DNA of 46,265 nucleotides from contig LVAT01000014.1 of the NCBI GenBank assembly GCA_001604135.1, forward strand, positions 1 through 46,265, written 5' to 3'. The notes below the pieces were generated by a model. The model was given only the letters and a program-made list of their open reading frames with translations. It had not been told where the DNA came from and did no database searches. The stretch is from Clostridiales bacterium Firm_14 (GTDB lineage Bacteria; Bacillota; Clostridia; Saccharofermentanales; Saccharofermentanaceae). The position numbers and the translations under genes are program-made. Below, piece by piece: positions 102 to 8,284 of the stretch; within the stretch, counting starts at the first letter, position 1; the number at the start of each line of letters is the position of its first letter.

Positions 102-1487
102 TTATTCTTTCTTTTCGCCGGGCTGTTCCAGACCTGAGGTCAGGAGCTTGACCGCGATCGCGCATTCGATACGCTTTTTGAAGATATCGCAGCCCATCTT
201 GTAGATGCCGTTGATGTCGCCTGAAGCGTGATAGGAATTGGCAGCGCATCCGCCGGAGCAGTAGAGCTTTGCCCAGCAGTCCTTGCATTCGGGACGGCTG
301 TAAGCGTTGCAGCAGGAGAACTTATCCTGAAGCTCAATATTCTTAACGCCTTCGTAGATGGAACCCATCTTGTATGCGTCGTCGCCTACGAACTGGTGGC
401 AGGGATAGAGGTCACCCCATGGCGTTACTGCCAGATACTCGGTGCCGGAGCCGCAGCCTGCGATCCTCTTATAGATGCAGGGACCGCATGTGAGGTCGAG
501 CATATAGTGGTAGAACGTGAAGGGCCTGCCTTCCTTGTAATGCTGTACCATGAGTCTTGCGAGCTCTTCGTACTGCGCAAAGACGGTGGGCAGGTCTTCC
601 TCTGTGATAGCGGAAGGGCTGGAAGGATCGGTAACAACAGGCTCCATGGAGAGCTCTGTGAAACCCAGGTCTAACATCTGCTTAATGTCGTTTACGAAGT
701 CTGTGTTGAAATGAGTGAAGGTGCCGCGCATGTAATAGCTTAAGTTGCCGCGCTTTGCGACAAACTTCTGGAAGTTCGGAACGATCTTGTCGTAAGAACC
801 GTGGCCTGCATAGTCGACTCTGAAACGGTCATTAACTTCCTTACGGCCGTCCAGAGAGAGGACGACGTTATGCATTTCCTTATTACAGAATTCCGTGACC
901 TCATCGTCTAAGAGCATGCCGTTTGTCGTAAGGGTGAAACGGATATTCTTGTTGTGGAGCTTCTCCTGTTCGCGGCCGTAAGCAACGAGCTGCTTTACGA
1001 CATCCCAGTTCATGAGAGGCTCGCCGCCGAAGAAGTCGATATCAAGGTTCTTGTGGAAGCCTGAATTCTCGATGAGGAAATCGATAGCCTTCTTGCCGAC
1101 CTCATAGCTCATGATGGCGCGCTCGCCGTGGTACTTGCCCTGGCTTGCGAAGCAGTAAGAGCAGTTGAGGTTGCATGTGTGGGCAACATGGAGGCACAAG
1201 GCCTTGATCTTGAAGTTCTTCTTCCTGAAATCCTTGGCCAGGTGCTCATATTTGTCGGGAGCGTAGAGTTTACCGGCTGTCTTAAGGTCATCTATGTCAG
1301 CGATGCATTCTTCGGCATCTTCTCGTGTGATGCCGTGCTTTTCGATCGCTTTGGCGATAACTTCTTCAGCGGGCTCGTTTTCGTACCATTGGATCATGTC
1401 ATAGGCGACTTCGTCGACCATGTGAATGGAACCCGAATAGCAGTCGAGCACGATGTTAAGACCTTCAAATTGATAACAGTGGATCAT
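102..1487 (-). CDS. scfB: SCIFF peptide maturase, radical SAM/SPASM thioether-forming enzyme
   Basis: A 461-residue radical SAM enzyme expected to install thioether cross-links in the neighbouring six-cysteine SCIFF peptide. Visible parts in order: an N-terminal region of about 90 residues that in this family carries the peptide-binding (RRE) fold; the radical SAM cluster motif CNLNCSYC at residues 105-112; the GGEPLMNW motif typical of SAM binding; and a cysteine-rich SPASM domain from about residue 330 (CGPC, CGSG, CHQF, CKDC, CSGGC) holding auxiliary Fe-S clusters. The ATG is preceded by GGGAG at a good distance. It follows scfA on the same strand, separated by an internal terminator. The pairing of precursor and maturase is nearly universal in Clostridia; the biological role of the product is not settled. 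Confidence 0.95.
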   Translation of the reverse strand: MIHCYQFEGLNIVLDCYSGSIHMVDEVAYDMIQWYENEPAEEVIAKAIEKHGITREDAEECIADIDDLKTAGKLYAPDKYEHLAKDFRKKNFKIKALCLHVAHTCNLNCSYCFASQGKYHGERAIMSYEVGKKAIDFLIENSGFHKNLDIDFFGGEPLMNWDVVKQLVAYGREQEKLHNKNIRFTLTTNGMLLDDEVTEFCNKEMHNVVLSLDGRKEVNDRFRVDYAGHGSYDKIVPNFQKFVAKRGNLSYYMRGTFTHFNTDFVNDIKQMLDLGFTELSMEPVVTDPSSPSAITEEDLPTVFAQYEELARLMVQHYKEGRPFTFYHYMLDLTCGPCIYKRIAGCGSGTEYLAVTPWGDLYPCHQFVGDDAYKMGSIYEGVKNIELQDKFSCCNAYSRPECKDCWAKLYCSGGCAANSYHASGDINGIYKMGCDIFKKRIECAIAVKLLTSGLEQPGEKKE

Positions 1488-1507
1488 CTAAAAACTCCCG
1501 ATTACAT

Positions 1508-1536
1508 AAAAAAAGGTCCCACGTAAAATGAGACCT
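1508..1536 (-). terminator. Intercistronic terminator between scfA and scfB
   Basis: On the minus strand AGGTCTCA and TGGGACCT form an 8-bp stem (one G-U pair) around a 7-base loop, followed directly by seven T residues. It sits in the 73-bp gap between the precursor gene and the maturase gene. The likely effect is partial termination, giving far more precursor mRNA than maturase mRNA, as seen in many RiPP operons. That stoichiometric role is an inference. Confidence 0.75.
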
Positions 1537-1560
1537 CTTAGGCTTCAAGATAAATTCAGC

Positions 1561-1707
1561 TTATTTATTGAGCTGCTCGCAAGGCTGGTTAGCAACACCG
1601 CAAGATGTCTTGCATGCAGACTGGCAAGATGTCTGGCACTCGCCGCATCCGCCTTCCTTAGCTGACTTCTCGAGATCTCTTGTCTCAATTGTAACGATTC
1701 TTGTCAT
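1561..1707 (-). CDS. scfA: Six-cysteine peptide SCIFF (RiPP precursor)
   Basis: A 48-residue peptide starting MTRIVTIETRDLEKSAKEGG and ending in a tail with six cysteines in the pattern CxxCxxxCxxxCxxxCx(6)C, each a potential thioether donor for ScfB. This matches the SCIFF family (six cysteines in forty-five residues), which has a conserved leader and an almost invariant cysteine spacing across Clostridia. The ATG at 1707 was chosen because GGAG lies upstream at a good distance. A longer reading frame back to 1767 would start inside the promoter. A strong promoter directly upstream and a terminator directly downstream suggest that the precursor is made in excess as a short transcript. Confidence 0.95.
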   Translation of the reverse strand: MTRIVTIETRDLEKSAKEGGCGECQTSCQSACKTSCGVANQPCEQLNK

Positions 1708-1738
1708 AGTATTAATCTCCCTCGTTTTTAATACGTGA

Positions 1739-1767
1739 ATTATACTTTGATGATCTATAACAGTCAA
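1739..1767 (-). promoter_or_regulatory. Promoter of scfA
   Basis: On the minus strand a -35 TTGACT (1762-1767) and a perfect -10 TATAAT (1739-1744) are 17 bp apart. The -35 overlaps the last bases of the decarboxylase gene, so scfA is transcribed independently of it. The start of transcription should lie near 1732, giving a 5' UTR of about 25 nt. Confidence 0.8.
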
Positions 1768-3149
1768 GGCAAAACGGGTATCAGTCCCTTATAGTCGCGA
1801 CCTCCGCCCATGTGCAGGTGGATATCGCCCCTTGAGAGGATCCTGACAGTGTCTTCCGTAATGACTTCGCCGGGCATCAGGATCGGAATTCCCGGAGGAA
1901 AGCCGTAGATGAATGCACCGGATGGTCTTCCGATGCAGAATTCAGGTTCCAATTCAACGCAGCGGAGCCTTGACCCGGCAGCTTCCTTTAATGTCATGGC
2001 AAATCTGGGGTAGGGCCTTGAGATGAACTGCGATTCGGAATAAGGGCTGTCCACGGCGTCATCTACCGTCCGGACCGCATCGCAGAAACGCTTTACCGAA
2101 TCGATCGTGTCACCGATGCCTGTCATGGCGATAAGGTGCGAAGGGAAGCTTGCTTCGCATTCGATGTTGAATGTTCCTCTGAGCTGGTCGAAAAGGAAAT
2201 CGCCGTAGCCCATTATCACGAACTTTGACCTCTCCCTGACGGGCGCTTCCCAGAGCCTGAAGTTACGGAGGCCGCGGAGGTTCTCCTCAGCATAAGCAAT
2301 CGCTTCCTCCCACGGCTTTAAGATTTCAGGACCCTTGGAATAGAGAGTCGAGAGGCACTTGGATACGCCGCCTAAGAGTATGTAAGAGGGGGATGAAGTC
2401 TCAAAGATATCAAGGCCTCTTCTTATGAGTGCTTCTTCAACGGGACATCCTTCGTTAAGCAGCATTACCGCCGTCTGAGTAGGTGAAGACAATGTCTTGT
2501 GAAGGCTCTTTATCACGATATCGCCCTTTGAATCAGGGCCGAAGAAATTATCGTCCAGTCCCAGATGCGCGCCGTGCGCACTGTCGGTAATGAGGAGGGC
2601 ATCGTATTTTCGCGTGATCCTGAAGATCTCGTCCATGTCTGACAGGACGCCTTCATATGTAGGCGAAGTGACGACAACTATCTTGAGCGACGGATCTCTG
2701 GCAAGGTATCTCTCGACGTCAGAAGGCGATACGTGGCCTGCGAAAGGAAGTCCTATGTCGAAGGCAGGCATCAAAGGAACAATGGAACTGCCGGTAAGTT
2801 CGATCGCATTCCAGACTGAAAGATGGCAGTTCATCGCAGTAAGAATCTTCGAATTAGGATAGAGGATCGATGCGCTCCAGATGGCAGCGAGGATCAGCGC
2901 GGAAGAGCCGTTAACGGAAATGAAGGCATTTCGAGCTTTCCAGATGGAAGCAGCGCAGTCTTCCATATCCTTAAGGATTCCTGTAGGGGAATGGAGGTTA
3001 TCGAATCCGCCGATCTCGGTGATGTCGCGCATGAAAGCCTGTGACACGAAGTCAGGATTGCGCTTGCCGCCGGGCATGTGCATCGGCAGAGGATCGGTTC
3101 CAAGATAGAGCTTCAATGCAGCTCCGAGTCTGTCGTTGTCATACTTCAT
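1764..3149 (-). CDS. Orn/Lys/Arg decarboxylase-family PLP enzyme
   Basis: A 461-residue PLP-dependent fold-type I protein of the Orn/Lys/Arg decarboxylase family (short form, like Bacillus YaaO/SpeA). Seen: the N-terminal HMPGGKRN motif (family HTPGHKxG), the PLP aspartate in ITDSAHGAHLG near residue 190, and the PLP lysine in IKSLHKTLSSPTQTA near residue 218. The family C-terminal motif appears as GFPPGIPILMPGE. Its substrate among arginine, lysine and ornithine cannot be told from sequence; a role in polyamine synthesis is the usual one. The ATG at 3149 has AGGAGG 9 bp upstream; a TTG two codons earlier is too close to that site. It lies upstream of scfA on the same strand, but scfA has its own promoter. 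Confidence 0.85.
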   Translation of the reverse strand: MKYDNDRLGAALKLYLGTDPLPMHMPGGKRNPDFVSQAFMRDITEIGGFDNLHSPTGILKDMEDCAASIWKARNAFISVNGSSALILAAIWSASILYPNSKILTAMNCHLSVWNAIELTGSSIVPLMPAFDIGLPFAGHVSPSDVERYLARDPSLKIVVVTSPTYEGVLSDMDEIFRITRKYDALLITDSAHGAHLGLDDNFFGPDSKGDIVIKSLHKTLSSPTQTAVMLLNEGCPVEEALIRRGLDIFETSSPSYILLGGVSKCLSTLYSKGPEILKPWEEAIAYAEENLRGLRNFRLWEAPVRERSKFVIMGYGDFLFDQLRGTFNIECEASFPSHLIAMTGIGDTIDSVKRFCDAVRTVDDAVDSPYSESQFISRPYPRFAMTLKEAAGSRLRCVELEPEFCIGRPSGAFIYGFPPGIPILMPGEVITEDTVRILSRGDIHLHMGGGRDYKGLIPVLP

Positions 3150-3201
3150 GCGCAATTACCTCCTTAGATGTAAGGTAACACAAAAAAGAAGTATAAAGAA
3201 G

Positions 3202-3230
3202 TTGACATCTTAATTCTACACTTGTAGAAT
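3202..3230 (+). promoter_or_regulatory. Promoter of blaI-like gene with embedded palindromic operator
   Basis: TTGACA (3202-3207) and TAGAAT (3225-3230) are 17 bp apart. The perfect 18-bp palindrome ATTCTACACTTGTAGAAT at 3213-3230 fills the spacer and the -10 box. Its TACA-N2-TGTA core is the known recognition pattern of BlaI/MecI repressors, so the gene immediately downstream very likely represses itself. Confidence 0.85.
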
Positions 3231-3254
3231 GTTGAAAAACATATAAGGGGAAAT

Positions 3255-3626
3255 ATGCATATGAAAGAAACATCTATTGGTGACAGCGAATATAAGTTGA
3301 TGGAGCTCATTTGGGAATATTCACCGATCGCATCGGGCGAGTTATCCACCATGTGTGAGATGATCCACGGCTGGAAGAAGACCACGGTCTATACAATGCT
3401 CAAAAGACTTCAGGATAAGGGCTTTATCCAGAGTGAGAAGTCCACTATCACATATCTGATAGGCCGCGATGAACTCCAGAAGCAGCAGAGCGAGGAACTC
3501 GTCGAGAAGAACTTCAAGGGTTCTCTGCCTATGTTCGTCAATGCTTTCTTAGGTGGAGGCAAGAAGATGAGCAAGGAAGATGCCCAGAGTCTTATCGACA
3601 TGATCGAACAGCATACGGAAGAATAA
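3255..3626 (+). CDS. BlaI/MecI-family transcriptional repressor
   Basis: A 123-residue protein with the winged-helix domain of the BlaI/MecI/CopY family: an N-terminal helical part (SEYKLMELIWEYSP, matching the family's E-x-x-V-M-x-x-x-W pattern), the recognition-helix region KKTTVYTMLKRLQDKGFI, and a C-terminal dimerisation helix ending near residue 120. BlaI proteins bind TACA-N2-TGTA dyads as dimers and are inactivated when a partner M56 protease triggers their cleavage. The partner protease gene starts 25 bp downstream. A second ATG at 3261 is equally well placed behind AGGGG, so the start is uncertain by two codons. Its probable targets are its own promoter and the promoter at 6330. Confidence 0.93.
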   Translation: MHMKETSIGDSEYKLMELIWEYSPIASGELSTMCEMIHGWKKTTVYTMLKRLQDKGFIQSEKSTITYLIGRDELQKQQSEELVEKNFKGSLPMFVNAFLGGGKKMSKEDAQSLIDMIEQHTEE

Positions 3627-3651
3627 GGAACATATTCAGGGATAGAGTGTT

Positions 3652-6228
3652 ATGAGTTATATATTTTCCAAAGTATTGGAGATGAGCCTTTACGGCAGTA
3701 TTGCCATACTTGTCGTTTTATTGTTCAGGCTTATCTTCAAGAAATGCCCCAAAAAGGTCATGATCCTTTTCTGGATCATAGTTGCGTTAAGGCTTGTACT
3801 GCCGTTTAATTTCAATTCGCCGACGAGCCTCCTTAACTTCGGCAAGTTCATCCAGCCGAAGACAGTATCGGCAGAGCCCACGACCTACGATCCGGAGACG
3901 AGATTAAGAGAGATCGCTGTAGTCGACACCGCACCTGTGGTTGTGGAACAGAATGCACCTGATACTGCCGTAATTGATAACGGCTCTGATGCTCCTGAGA
4001 CCGCTCCCGTGGTTACTGAACAGGCTCCGAAGGTGACGTTCAAGTCAGTGCTTCCGTATATCTGGCTCACCGTTATGGTAGGCATGCTCATTTTCTCAGC
4101 GATAAGATATTCAATCTTCTATTCAAGGGCGAGATGGAGCTCACGCTCTTTCGACGGCAGATATTACATGGCCAATGATATCGATTCGCCATTCGTTGTA
4201 GGTATCATAAAGCCGAAGATCTTTTTCCCGATCAACATGGATGACGACGAGCGCGAATATGTCCTTAATCACGAGTGGACGCACATCAAGAACAAGGACG
4301 GACTTACAAAGCTTCTAAGCTATATCGTCCTTTGCATCCACTGGTTCAATCCGCTCGTATGGCTCGCTTTCTTTATGCTCTGCGCAGATATCGAAATGCG
4401 TGTCGATGAGGAGACCACGAGCAATTTCAACCTTTCAATGGTAAAGGAATACTGCAAGTCTCTCGTAAGACATGCGGCTGACGACAATAAGGGCGCATTC
4501 ATGCAGAGCACCGCATTCAGCGGCCTGAGCTTCGGAGGCATGGAGACCAAGATGAGGATCAAGAATCTCCTGTCCCATAAGATATCGTCAAGAGAGATCC
4601 AGATAGCTTCCATCTGCGTTACGCTTGTCTTCTCACTCCTAGTATCTGCATCTTCTGTTGATCACCAGCCATGGGTCAGGGAGAAGCCTTCCGAGCCCGG
4701 AGAGAGCGCTGCAGTTGCAACGTCTGATACTACGGAATCTACGCCTTCTGAGGCTACTACTGAGACGACAAAGACCAGAAGATGGGATGCTGCATTCATT
4801 GATCCTTATATTGAATTCATTAATCAAAGCGTATCTGACAATGAGGCGAATAAGGCATATTACAAGTATGCTTTCATTTATGTTGATGATGATCTGATCC
4901 CCGAACTCGTTCTGGAAAAACCGACAGAGGGAGCGAACAACTCAGTCAGTCTCTATACTTTCAAAAATGGAAAGGTTACACCGGTCTTTGAGGATGGCGT
5001 GAAAATGGATCCGGAAGAGGCTTATTACTATGTCCCTTTTGAAGATTTCATTGTGTATCACAAGGCGAATACCGCAGGTACTCAGTTCGAAGATAAGCTC
5101 TATTCATTAAATGATCTTATTTCCGGCGCAGCGCCTAAGGGCAAAGGCCTTTCCGAGGATCCCTCATATTCTATCGACGGCAAGACTGTCACACAGAATG
5201 AATATTTCGAGTACTTCCGCAACCGCGAATTAGAACTGATCTGCGGCAAAGTCAAGATCGATAAGGCTATAAGGATCCTTGAAGATCAGAAGACTTCAGG
5301 TGGAACCAAGATCCCTTCTGACATCTCAGATGATCCGGAAGTTACGGGGACAGTTGAGACAACCACAGAGACAACGGCAGAGCCTGAAGTATCGGTCACC
5401 CCTACGCCCACATCTGCGCCGGTTAACAGCACAGAAGCCACAATGGCGACAACAGCAGGCACTGCCCAGACCACGGCTTCCCCTAAATATGGTTCTGTTA
5501 AAGATATGAAGGACGGAAAGACACTGCCCTTCGATTACAATAACAACACCGGCACGCTTGAATGTGATTACGGTTCATTCTATTACGAGCGTGGCCAGAG
5601 TGCCGATAAGGTCCACATTGTACATAATGGAAAGAGTTATTCATTAAATATCTATACTGACAGATCCAAATCGATCCTGTTAAATGCTTCTCTTATCAAA
5701 GCCAACGGGAAAGCATACATTTACATAAATACGCTGCTTAAAGATAACTCTTTTGATGTCAGTGTATATGAAGTAAGTGACAGTGATATTAAATATATCG
5801 GACACTGCACAGGTATTGCTCTGCCTGTTGATATAAAAGATCCATATAGATTCAACTGCTCCATAATTAACGGCGACGACCTGACTATCAGTTTGAGCAG
5901 AGATTTCAAGGTAGCTTCCAAAACCGGTTTACCTGTTGTAGCTGACTATATGTGCCGTGTTAAAGCCTTGAAGGACGTAAAGGCTGCACGCGATATAACA
6001 GGCTATATCGTCAGGAATGGCAAGGTTACAACTGAGACGATGACGATCAAGGCAGGAGATCCGGTAAGTCCCGGCGAGCTTAACGAAGTCTCGTATTTTG
6101 ATATCCAAGACATAAACTCAGGCAATGTCGTCAGAGTGGACTTTGAACCGCTCCTGAACGAATACTACGCCATGAACGATGAACGCTGGGTGTACAGGGC
6201 AATCTTAAGTCTGATCAGGCAAGCATGA
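3652..6228 (+). CDS. M56-family (BlaR1-like) membrane metalloprotease with novel C-terminal ectodomain
   Basis: An 858-residue membrane protein expected to sense an outside signal and inactivate the adjacent BlaI repressor. Order: two N-terminal membrane helices (about 8-28 and 35-52), a Pro/Thr-rich external loop, a third helix near 130-150, and the cytoplasmic zinc protease domain with HEWTH at 207-211. Further helices follow near 220-245 and 318-337. After a Thr-rich linker comes a globular region (about 380-560) with IYVDDDLIPELVLE, a motif common in clostridial secreted proteins. A second Thr/Pro-rich linker leads to a final 245-residue domain. That last domain is homologous to two repeats in the downstream lipoprotein. 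The penicillin-binding sensor of true BlaR1 is absent, so the ligand is probably not a beta-lactam. Confidence 0.85.
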   Translation: MSYIFSKVLEMSLYGSIAILVVLLFRLIFKKCPKKVMILFWIIVALRLVLPFNFNSPTSLLNFGKFIQPKTVSAEPTTYDPETRLREIAVVDTAPVVVEQNAPDTAVIDNGSDAPETAPVVTEQAPKVTFKSVLPYIWLTVMVGMLIFSAIRYSIFYSRARWSSRSFDGRYYMANDIDSPFVVGIIKPKIFFPINMDDDEREYVLNHEWTHIKNKDGLTKLLSYIVLCIHWFNPLVWLAFFMLCADIEMRVDEETTSNFNLSMVKEYCKSLVRHAADDNKGAFMQSTAFSGLSFGGMETKMRIKNLLSHKISSREIQIASICVTLVFSLLVSASSVDHQPWVREKPSEPGESAAVATSDTTESTPSEATTETTKTRRWDAAFIDPYIEFINQSVSDNEANKAYYKYAFIYVDDDLIPELVLEKPTEGANNSVSLYTFKNGKVTPVFEDGVKMDPEEAYYYVPFEDFIVYHKANTAGTQFEDKLYSLNDLISGAAPKGKGLSEDPSYSIDGKTVTQNEYFEYFRNRELELICGKVKIDKAIRILEDQKTSGGTKIPSDISDDPEVTGTVETTTETTAEPEVSVTPTPTSAPVNSTEATMATTAGTAQTTASPKYGSVKDMKDGKTLPFDYNNNTGTLECDYGSFYYERGQSADKVHIVHNGKSYSLNIYTDRSKSILLNASLIKANGKAYIYINTLLKDNSFDVSVYEVSDSDIKYIGHCTGIALPVDIKDPYRFNCSIINGDDLTISLSRDFKVASKTGLPVVADYMCRVKALKDVKAARDITGYIVRNGKVTTETMTIKAGDPVSPGELNEVSYFDIQDINSGNVVRVDFEPLLNEYYAMNDERWVYRAILSLIRQA

Positions 6229-6251
6229 ATATAGATAATGCTGTTTAAACG

Positions 6252-6276
6252 AAGGGAGCTTTAAGCTCCCTTTTTT
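6252..6276 (+). terminator. Intrinsic terminator after the M56 protease gene
   Basis: AAGGGAGCTT and AAGCTCCCTT form a short GC-rich stem followed by a T run (6271-6276). It closes the repressor-protease transcript, so the lipoprotein gene downstream depends on its own promoter. Confidence 0.85.
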
Positions 6277-6305
6277 CGTGCCCTCGAAAACGGTTTCAAA
6301 AAATA

Positions 6306-6321
6306 TTCTACAAATGTAGAA
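6306..6321 (+). promoter_or_regulatory. BlaI-type operator O1 upstream of lipoprotein promoter
   Basis: The perfect 16-bp palindrome TTCTACAAATGTAGAA has the same arms as the operator in front of blaI and differs only in the two central bases. It lies about 9 bp upstream of the -35 box. Binding by the BlaI-like protein is inferred from the shared sequence and the family's known TACA-N2-TGTA core. Confidence 0.85.
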
Positions 6322-6329
6322 AAAAAGTC

Positions 6330-6358
6330 TTGACATGTGTTTTCTACAATTGTAGAAT
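6330..6358 (+). promoter_or_regulatory. Promoter of lipoprotein gene with operator O2
   Basis: TTGACA (6330-6335) and TAGAAT (6353-6358) are 17 bp apart, an architecture identical to the blaI promoter. Operator O2, TTCTACAATTGTAGAA (6342-6357), covers the spacer and -10. A bound repressor dimer would block RNA polymerase directly. Confidence 0.88.
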
Positions 6359-6374
6359 GACGCTCGTAAGGTTG

Positions 6375-6405
6375 TTCTACGTTTGTAGAATCTACGCATG
6401 TAGAA
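6375..6405 (+). promoter_or_regulatory. BlaI-type operators O3 and O4, abutting, in the 5' UTR
   Basis: TTCTACGTTTGTAGAA (6375-6390) and ATCTACGCATGTAGAA (6390-6405) follow each other with centres 15 bp apart, about one and a half helical turns. Both keep the CTAC...GTAG arms but have TACG instead of TACA in the left half, so they are probably weaker sites. They lie just downstream of the expected transcription start. Confidence 0.75.
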
Positions 6406-6433
6406 CAGCCGATAATATACGGAGGAAATTAAA

Positions 6434-8284
6434 ATGAAGTTTATAGCAAAACCTATTAAGAGAGGCAGAATTACTGAATCAGCACTTGCAGCGGTTATCC
6501 TTTCAGGAGCCATTGCGGTCACAGCTTCCGGATGCACGGCAGAGATCAAGCTGGCAGACGGAACGCCCATCGGAAGTGTAGTTATCAATGACGAGGCGCT
6601 CGCTTCAGGCATTACGGTAAATCAGCAGGGAGCAAATGCAGATGTTATTACTGATCCTTCAGTCGTTTTACCGGATGATAACTTCGATGAGAACACAGAT
6701 ACAAAAGAGAGCGATATCCCGGAGACAACACCAGCAGCTAACAAGACAGAGCCGGCAAAGACAACCGAGGCTCCAGCAGAGACAACACCCAAGGCTACTG
6801 AAACCCAGAAAACCGATGCGCTCGATTCTGTGAAGGATGGTTCTGTCTTGAAGTTAAGAGACGGTAACGATGGTGTTAAGTTTACAGACAATGAGGGATG
6901 GGGTTATGTATTCCACCACCCGTCTACAACAGGCAGGGTGTGGGTCCAGGTTGAGGATAAAGGTTTTGTACTCCCTATTAAAAACTCTGAACTCGGAGTA
7001 AGCGAATCATTCCTTTTAAAGAAAAACGGCCAGGTATATCTCTACATCAGCGCTATGCACGGCGGAGATAATTGTGAGATCAATGTATATTCTCTTGAAT
7101 ATGGTTCCATAAATTATGTCGGATGCTATGAAGGCCTTTATGCCAGCGAGATCAATTCGGTCGATTCATTCTCCTGCTACGAGCATTACGGACGCAATTA
7201 CATGTTCACGCTTCATGGATTTTTCAAAGTAGGAAATGACGGAATGCCGGTGCTTGCAAATAACATCCGCAGTATCTATAACACATCTCCTTCAAGGATC
7301 AAGTCTGATTACAGAGGTCAGATCATAAGAGACGGAAAACTGACTAATGAATCTAAGATCATCAATAAGGGTGACGTTGTAGAACTTATCAAAACGGACT
7401 TGGAGAACTTTATTGATGTAAAAATGCAAGACGGCACTGTTCTCAGGCTTTACTGCACAAAGAATTTCAATGAAGCAGATAAGAATAATAAAGCAAATGC
7501 AATCTTCAGCTTATTTGAGATCGCTAAGGATTTTGACGAAGAAAAGGCCGGAACAGTTAACGCGATGGGTAACGGACGCGTAATGGTCTTCCAGGCAAAC
7601 GACAAGAAGCGCACACTCGATTCTGCATACGGTTCATTCGTTGTTGAGAATAATATTGACAGTCAGAAGATCCAGATTACTTACAACAGACACGCCTATG
7701 TTCTTCCCGTACACACTGATAATTCCGGACTCAGGATCGGCAGCACATTCCTTATTAAGACAAACGGCAAGGCATTTATCTATGTAACATCCTGCATGGA
7801 CGAAGATCTTTGTGACATCAATGTTTATGAAGTAAATGACAGCTCGATCAGGTTTGTGGGACACCACGAAGGAATGTATATTCATTGTAATATGACAAGT
7901 ACCGACAAGTTCCTCTGCTATGAGAATGACGGAATGAACGGCGTGATGAGTATCACAAGATACTATAAGGCATCAGCTAACGGTATGCCGGTGATCGCAG
8001 ATACAACCTGCTACGTGAAGTTAAGCGTAAAAGTAAAGGCTTCCAAGGATATTACAGGTTATGTTGTAAAGGGCGGAAAAGCCACAAATGAGAAATATAC
8101 GATCAAGGCCGGAGACCAGATCAGTTTCACCGAGTTTAACGAAGTAACTTATTTCGATATTACAGACAGCAAGACAGGCACCATCGTCAGAGTAAGCTCC
8201 GAGCCTTTGCTCAACGAGTACTACGACGATAAGGATAATCATTGGGTTTATAAGGCATTATTAAGCCTCGTCGAAATGTTATAA
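6434..8284 (+). CDS. Thr-rich lipoprotein with two copies of the M56-protein C-terminal domain
   Basis: A 616-residue secreted protein. The N-terminus has basic residues, a hydrophobic stretch and a lipobox-like TASGC (Cys34), indicating a lipoprotein anchored on the outer face of the membrane. A Thr/Pro/Glu-rich linker (about 85-130) is followed by two related domains, about 131-365 and 375-616. The second closely matches the last 245 residues of the M56 protease; shared blocks include SYFDI/TYFDI, EPLLNEYY, and WVY(K/R)A(L/I)LSL at the end. I do not recognise the domain as a named family. Start: GGAGG seven to eight bases before the ATG. Its promoter carries multiple BlaI-type operators, so it appears to be the main target of the adjacent repressor-protease pair. 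Confidence 0.8.
   Translation: MKFIAKPIKRGRITESALAAVILSGAIAVTASGCTAEIKLADGTPIGSVVINDEALASGITVNQQGANADVITDPSVVLPDDNFDENTDTKESDIPETTPAANKTEPAKTTEAPAETTPKATETQKTDALDSVKDGSVLKLRDGNDGVKFTDNEGWGYVFHHPSTTGRVWVQVEDKGFVLPIKNSELGVSESFLLKKNGQVYLYISAMHGGDNCEINVYSLEYGSINYVGCYEGLYASEINSVDSFSCYEHYGRNYMFTLHGFFKVGNDGMPVLANNIRSIYNTSPSRIKSDYRGQIIRDGKLTNESKIINKGDVVELIKTDLENFIDVKMQDGTVLRLYCTKNFNEADKNNKANAIFSLFEIAKDFDEEKAGTVNAMGNGRVMVFQANDKKRTLDSAYGSFVVENNIDSQKIQITYNRHAYVLPVHTDNSGLRIGSTFLIKTNGKAFIYVTSCMDEDLCDINVYEVNDSSIRFVGHHEGMYIHCNMTSTDKFLCYENDGMNGVMSITRYYKASANGMPVIADTTCYVKLSVKVKASKDITGYVVKGGKATNEKYTIKAGDQISFTEFNEVTYFDITDSKTGTIVRVSSEPLLNEYYDDKDNHWVYKALLSLVEML

Follow-up and report, generated by a model that had tools for sequence, protein, structure and literature searches.

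The closest described systems are BlaI-BlaR1-BlaZ and MecI-MecR1-MecA of staphylococci and Bacillus licheniformis, and the locus described here resembles them in having a BlaI-family repressor, an HExxH protease of family M56 and an extracellular C-terminal sensor. BlaI/MecI systems use operators of the TACA-N2-TGTA type, as does this locus. The BlaR1 sensor is described as akin to class D beta-lactamases and thus as recognising the same sort of molecules as the enzyme which is induced (parts of PMC9834060 and PMC7593790). A second precedent is RsgI6 of Clostridium thermocellum, the GH10 ectodomain of which is 57% identical to Xyn10D (part of PMC4711584). The likeness lies in a transmembrane regulator whose outside module is like the surface or secreted proteins of the regulated set, as far as described in the same part of PMC4711584. 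RsgI proteins differ in acting by anti-sigma factor release and in carrying known carbohydrate modules, whereas the present locus has a putative repressor-inactivating M56 protease, and the anti-sigma (RsgI) N-terminal domain was not found in the M56 protein using Pfam. The slpA S-layer cassette of Clostridioides difficile is a surface protein gene swapped by recombination between conserved flanks, and SlpA is a structural S-layer protein not known to have a matched sensor. SlpA is named as a phage receptor in the portion of the Clostridioides difficile literature covered here.

Unlike in BlaR1 and MecR1 systems, the regulated gene encodes a lipoprotein without family match that shares a close domain (44%) with the sensor. 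A penicillin-binding (class D beta-lactamase-like) sensor domain gave no Pfam match in the M56 protein at E values up to 1. The NCBIfam BlaR1 model scored 87.8 on the M56 protein against a cut-off of 400, and the best stretches of the BlaR1/MecR1 models, which stayed below cut-off, lay only within aa 174-333. Genome-wide, the perfect operators stand only at blaI and the lipoprotein, so a beta-lactamase or PBP2a is not in the perfect-operator regulon. The system is a variant of BlaI-M56 signalling, and what is most surprising is that the domains of sensor and output are matched and exchanged between species. The first-pass annotation had called the system previously undescribed, which stands for the domain in the libraries searched but not for the sharing of a domain by sensor and target, which has precedents in RsgI6/Xyn10D and in BlaR1 and the class D beta-lactamases. 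No description of the sensor-output design was found by title or by the start of the abstract in the open-licence literature, among the matches listed.

Organisation of the locus and its operators

The window, meaning the whole stretch of 46,265 nucleotides that was analysed, contained the following features.

3202-3230, + strand: blaI promoter-like site (TTGACA, 17-base spacer, TAGAAT) with the TACA-N2-TGTA operator (3217-3226) inside
3255-3626, + strand: BlaI-family repressor, 123 aa (PF03965, 78.8 bits, E 5e-22)
3652-6228, + strand: membrane protease of family M56, BlaR1-like, 858 aa (PF05569 at aa 7-305 with 143.6 bits)
4762-5331, + strand: aa 371-560 of the M56 protein, an extracellular middle region which varies between species and was not found in the lipoprotein
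5485-6225, + strand: C-terminal domain copy of the M56 protein (M56C), aa 612-858, by local alignment
6306-6405, + strand: group of four operators ahead of the lipoprotein gene, at 6306, 6342, 6375 and, with a single mismatch, 6390
6330-6358, + strand: lipoprotein promoter-like site (TTGACA, 17 bases, TAGAAT) with the second operator inside
6434-8284, + strand: lipoprotein, 616 aa, with a lipobox-like TASGC (judged by eye), a Thr/Pro/Glu-rich linker and two domain copies
6812-7531, + strand: diverged lipoprotein copy L1, aa 127-366, by local alignment
7532-8281, + strand: lipoprotein copy L2, aa 367-616, by local alignment, with an AlphaFold2 model

The proposed BlaI/BlaR1-like scaffold was borne out by the PF05569 match, by an HEWTH (HExxH) motif at aa 207 and by the adjoining BlaI gene. 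Motif and hydropathy placed the last membrane-like helix at aa 315-338, and the protease is followed by the middle region, a Thr/Pro-rich linker and then the domain. In Pfam, the M56 protein matched M56 and, weakly, M48 only, and the lipoprotein had no match. Adjoining the locus, window positions 102-1767 hold a SCIFF ranthipeptide and a radical SAM maturase (TIGR03973, TIGR03974); the maturase start also stood beside the locus in 9 of the 13 other loci read.

Operators of the form TTCTAC-N4-GTAGAA were located at 3214, 6306, 6342, and 6375, with a single-mismatch copy at 6390, and at both promoter-like sites an operator lies between -35 and -10. In the genome of 3,120,228 bases, TCTACANNTGTAGA occurred at 3215, 6307, and 6343 only, while the reversed-pattern control gave 0; the operators at 6375 and 6390 are weaker and lie 3' of the TCTACANNTGTAGA sites. 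Since TCTACANNTGTAGA is unique to this locus, the perfect-operator regulon consists of the sensor operon and the lipoprotein. When one mismatch was allowed in TTCTACNNNNGTAGAA, the control gave 23 matches against 11 for the motif, so that weaker sites of a wider regulon are not judgeable from this count. The operators are placed as for repression of both blaI-M56 and the lipoprotein. TACA-N2-TGTA operators and a co-regulated lipoprotein had been claimed, and the same operator is indeed present at the blaI promoter and upstream of the lipoprotein.

The domain shared by the M56 ectodomain and the lipoprotein

Local alignment of M56C (the last 247 aa) with L2 gave 43.9% identity over 244 aa (E 9e-73), that of L1 with L2 gave 28.6% over 248 aa (E 7e-35), and that of M56C with L1 gave 24.1% over 224 aa (E 1.6e-18). 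The alignment scores for the three copies stood 24 to 79 standard deviations above 500 shuffles, and L1 is a diverged third copy (24-29% to the other two). With identities of 24-44% and the shuffles far below, the claim of one domain common to the M56 ectodomain and both lipoprotein halves proved correct. A common block order was confirmed in part, as the EPLLNEYY and WVY blocks are present in M56C and L2 but missing from L1, in which only the general order is kept. In its own genome the domain was found at three places, all within this locus, whether the search used the M56 copy by itself or either of two profiles.

Searches of Pfam and NCBIfam gave no match better than E 0.007 for any of 31 domain copies, and the domain profile against PDB sequences gave a best E of 0.025, to an antibody fragment. 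The AlphaFold2 model of L2 (pLDDT 89.2, pTM 0.84) was mostly beta, with two helices toward the end. With this model, Foldseek found nothing convincing in the PDB (best E 0.0098, TM 0.30) or among the viral structures of BFVD (best E 0.011). VIA returned chiefly propeller pieces over residues 1-165 with Z up to 8.8, a level which VIA itself terms common; its best row, against a beta-propeller, had Z 8.8 and rmsd 3.5 over 124 residues (model 23-164), again at the common level. The domain, described at first as unnamed, is so in the libraries searched, with no match in Pfam and NCBIfam and no convincing structural match. Closure of L1 and L2 into one joint propeller was unsupported by the tandem L1-L2 model (pTM 0.54, pLDDT 79.7), for which 22 Foldseek rows had E <0.001, none of them with a TM by query above 0.18 (rows shown: 0.12-0.18). 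A phage or defence origin was rejected, since PADLOC gave 0 matches at E 0.01 for the M56 protein, the lipoprotein, and the lipoprotein of a second type (see below), and PHROGs gave no match for the lipoprotein.

Exchange between species and distribution of the domain

Comparison of the window with a related genome (G005) showed identities of 98% for BlaI, 96% for the M56 protease, 68% for the middle region, 27% for the ectodomain, 28% for L1, and 36% for L2. At the DNA level (E 1e-6), the match ran from 964 to 5378 at 86.6%, returned at 6254-6688 at 85% (promoter, operators, and signal sequence) and resumed at 8284, where the stop codon of the lipoprotein gene ends. The breakpoints coincide with gene parts and delimit two stretches.

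5379-6253: exchanged stretch 1, M56 ectodomain, without G005 DNA match at E 1e-6, both sides at 85-87%; just one short piece near 6001-6253 in a laxer search
6689-8283: exchanged stretch 2, mature lipoprotein, without G005 DNA match at E 1e-6 save 49 bases; short pieces of 35-51 bases in a laxer search

Against G033, the block 3439-8173 was 97% identical and the flanks 84-92%, and against G050, the two lipoprotein copies were 97 and 100% identical and the protease 75%. The genome G008 was mismatched, with an ectodomain of G005 type (57%) and a lipoprotein of window type (65 and 74%). Judging from these alignments, the ectodomain and the mature lipoprotein are exchanged between species. The swapping of both parts suggests that the sensor and the surface protein recognise the same changing thing, and the pattern indicates strong selection on the target of recognition.

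Two trees were generated without the near-copies of G033, G025, and G050 and without the genomes G155 and G156. In the tree of 25 copies (9 M56 and 16 lipoprotein), from which solo genes, the M56 tail of G067, and an extra gene of G008 were absent as well, six M56 copies were set apart by a branch with support 100/99, and those of the window, G023, and G059 fell among the lipoprotein copies. A single clade of the nine M56 copies was rejected by an AU test run after the first tree had been seen (p-AU 0.0043). In the tree of 32 rows, the same six M56 copies and the extra G008 gene formed a branch with support 100/98, and the M56 copy of the window was joined with L2 copies at support 89/72. Because M56 and lipoprotein copies are intermixed on the tree, the sensor and lipoprotein domains appear to have replaced one another at least once. 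The similarities of M56C and lipoprotein also covaried given the protease (partial Mantel r 0.61 and 0.64, p 0.002 and 0.001; n=10 genomes, some nearly identical to each other), which could come from physical linkage alone.

A profile of the three copies matched 15 of 118 related genomes (own included), all in the genus of the window; the matching genomes with names are Saccharofermentans, Ruminococcaceae or Clostridia assemblies, part of which carry RUG labels, which we take to denote rumen assemblies. Among 188 genomes of the order, the profile of 31 copies matched 44, which belong to 2 of 30 genera, the second (sister) genus matching only weakly. In the class it matched 11 of 291 genomes, nine of them weakly and outside the window's genus and two within it. 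The locus was present at the same chromosomal site with the same flanking genes in 14 Saccharofermentans-like genomes (window included; for G025 one flank only is on the contig), and 12 of these had a complete M56 frame carrying the domain. The M56 frame of G025 is cut by the contig end, and that of G050 ends early, with a separate short frame bearing the domain. This split M56 gene (G050, L060:2649-4740) and the shortened BlaI and lipoprotein frames of G033 (L055:9186-9401 and 4654-6399) may reflect decay of the circuit in some species, or assembly faults.

Further genes were seen at some of these loci. In G050 (L060:4989-13003), a sortase pilus operon lies between the M56 gene and the lipoprotein and comprises, by Pfam, a signal peptidase, an FctA-type pilin, backbone and Cna_B pilins, and two sortases. 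A pilus operon with frames of equal size and near-identical starts lies in G156 (L107:5985-13996) between two operator-bearing lipoprotein copies. Extra cassette genes near operators were found in G008 (L050:7501-8874), G059 (L062:6479-7675), and G063 (L063:6224-7522); the extra G008 gene has an M56-type domain copy and groups with M56 copies on the tree, and the first profile detected no domain copy in those of G059 and G063.

Among the loci read, TACANNTGTA was present near the start of 21 of 30 domain genes without M56 part vs 15 of 152 other genes, the count covering genes with at least 250 bases upstream and domain matches above 100 bits. Of the nine domain genes without operator near the start, two come immediately after an M56 gene and another is the fragment in G050. 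Five operator-less domain genes (L057, L065, L112, L126, and L127) have no M56 gene within the stretch read, so the domain is not confined to this circuit. Co-occurrence of the domain with BlaI-M56 pairs and operators was thus mostly positive overall: it held in the syntenic locus, but domain lipoproteins are also found away from it. In G148, the M56 tail is C-type-lectin-like (PF00059 above cut-off), and the tail of G159 is near-identical to it.

L109:1816-3372 and L111:8468-10054: M56 proteins with a C-type-lectin-like tail

Behind the lectin-tailed M56 genes of G148 and G159 stand single-domain lipoproteins with the focal domain, some with operators. Matching of sensor and lipoprotein is therefore not obligatory, and this arrangement suggests that the domain stood first in single-domain lipoproteins and was then taken up by the M56 protein.

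Recurrence at other M56 loci and possible function

In BLAST, 8 of 44 M56 tails, the focal one among them, matched a neighbouring gene, the design thus recurring with unrelated domains, and 36 had no match. The own genome contains seven M56 loci, six of them with tails of at least 80 aa, and three of the six match a neighbouring lipoprotein: the focal tail, L119 (47% over 235 aa), and L122 (29% over 488 aa). The partner lipoprotein of L122 has a weak solute-binding match (PF13416, 23.5 bits, below the cut-off of 27), and L121, L123, and L124 showed no match between tail and neighbour. Five of the 38 tails from other families of the class (L141, L149, L150, L160, and L163) matched a nearby frame with a signal-like start, such starts being judged by eye and other frames lying in between in L150 and L160. 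This survey drew on 39 of the listed M56 places in other genomes, one of which (L158) was dropped for its short frame; it passed over places whose frames were shorter than about 440 aa and one that scored below the family cut-off, and several stretches end at contig ends, so that neighbours can be missed. When tails were compared with non-M56 genes of other loci, 5 of 1,936 pairs matched, four of them within one genome (hand count). The three tail types of the own genome had no match at E 1e-3 to lipoproteins of the other types.

The L119 locus (L119:5929-9450, contig C13 of the own genome) is a second BlaI-M56-lipoprotein operon with a different shared domain, and two TTTATAARTGTAAA repeats stand upstream of its blaI. 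Its tail matches 16 genomes (own included), of which M56 loci were read in four (own, G020, G033, and G050); in each of these, one or more homologous lipoproteins adjoin the M56 gene that bears the tail. The M56 tails of this type are 44-73% identical among themselves vs 70-88% for the proteases, and hypervariability of the second type was rejected on these figures, so that, of the two types compared, only the focal locus shows the exchange. The L122 locus (L122:1181-7354, C20) encodes an M56 protein of 1094 aa with an ectodomain resembling a large-lipoprotein family, and this protein shares 48% identity with a lipoprotein close to a different M56 gene (L124:8771-14001, C45).

The M56 sensor probably switches on the surface lipoprotein. 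The BlaI/M56 scaffold argues that the M56 protease relieves BlaI in response to a signal from outside, a mechanism shown for BlaR1 (part of PMC9834060). The leading reading, to which we give a little less than an even chance, is an autoregulated BlaI/M56 pair in which the sensor and the induced lipoprotein bind the same ligand. BlaI would repress its own operon and the lipoprotein gene; an extracellular ligand would bind the M56 ectodomain, upon which the M56 protease would inactivate BlaI. The lipoprotein, with two domain copies on a flexible stalk, would then be made and, on the cell surface, bind ligand of this kind, capturing or neutralising it, and its competition with the sensor would end the signal. 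Owing to variation of the ligand, recombination would exchange ectodomain and matched lipoprotein body between species, leaving BlaI, protease, promoter, and signal sequence in place. Ligand binding, BlaI cleavage, induction, and feedback are steps that we infer. The domain held in common, the exchange affecting sensor and lipoprotein alike, and the recurrence at other loci argue for an output that binds the same thing as the sensor, and RsgI6/Xyn10D is the clearest precedent (in the part of PMC4711584 cited above). The mixed types of G008, the nine of 30 domain genes without operator, the tails of G148 and G159, and the 36 of 44 unmatched tails count against the leading reading.

An unlikely alternative is that the lipoprotein regulates the sensor: its domain would bind the M56 ectodomain like-to-like and keep the protease off, and loss of the lipoprotein or its capture by a wall component, phage or other cell would free the sensor, so that the circuit would gauge its own surface lipoprotein. 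A perfect-operator regulon of sensor and lipoprotein only agrees with such a circuit, and copies that intermix on the tree and covary are as expected for an interface needing a match; however, G008 combines unlike types, and the lipoprotein domains of G148 and G159 go with a different sensor tail.

Distinctly improbable, in our judgement, is a general surface- or wall-binding module used for anchoring, with the signal sensed elsewhere, for example by the middle region of the M56 protein, which varies too (68% vs 96% for the protease, against G005). Operator-less domain lipoproteins and the weak distant relatives in the sister genus and the class (11 of 291 genomes, two of the window's genus) would fit this role, but an anchoring module is not expected to be the most exchanged part of a locus. 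Neutral duplication, in which the lipoprotein domain was copied into the neighbouring gene and kept alike by gene conversion with no functional link, would account for adjacent genes and intermixed copies but is very improbable in view of the recurrence with other domains (8 of 44 tails vs 5 of 1,936 tail-other-locus pairs) and of the second type, paired at 4 of 4 loci though its M56 tails are only 44-73% identical.

If, as in the leading reading, sensor and lipoprotein share a recognition domain, the output, which is easily expressed as a soluble domain, could be used as bait for the ligand. We know of no ligand for most M56 sensors beyond beta-lactam resistance, and the pairing of sensor and neighbour provides a rule for guessing the targets of M56 sensors from sequence. 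It is conceivable, though we regard it as doubtful, that M56 serves in Clostridia as a general plug-in sensing platform that has repeatedly captured the recognition domain of its output, and that in the window's genus one such pair became a polymorphic cassette of matched proteins by which a variable partner is sensed and answered. If this is true, the parts of the cassette would be exchanged together or separately, driven by phage, bacteriocin, predator or neighbouring cells.
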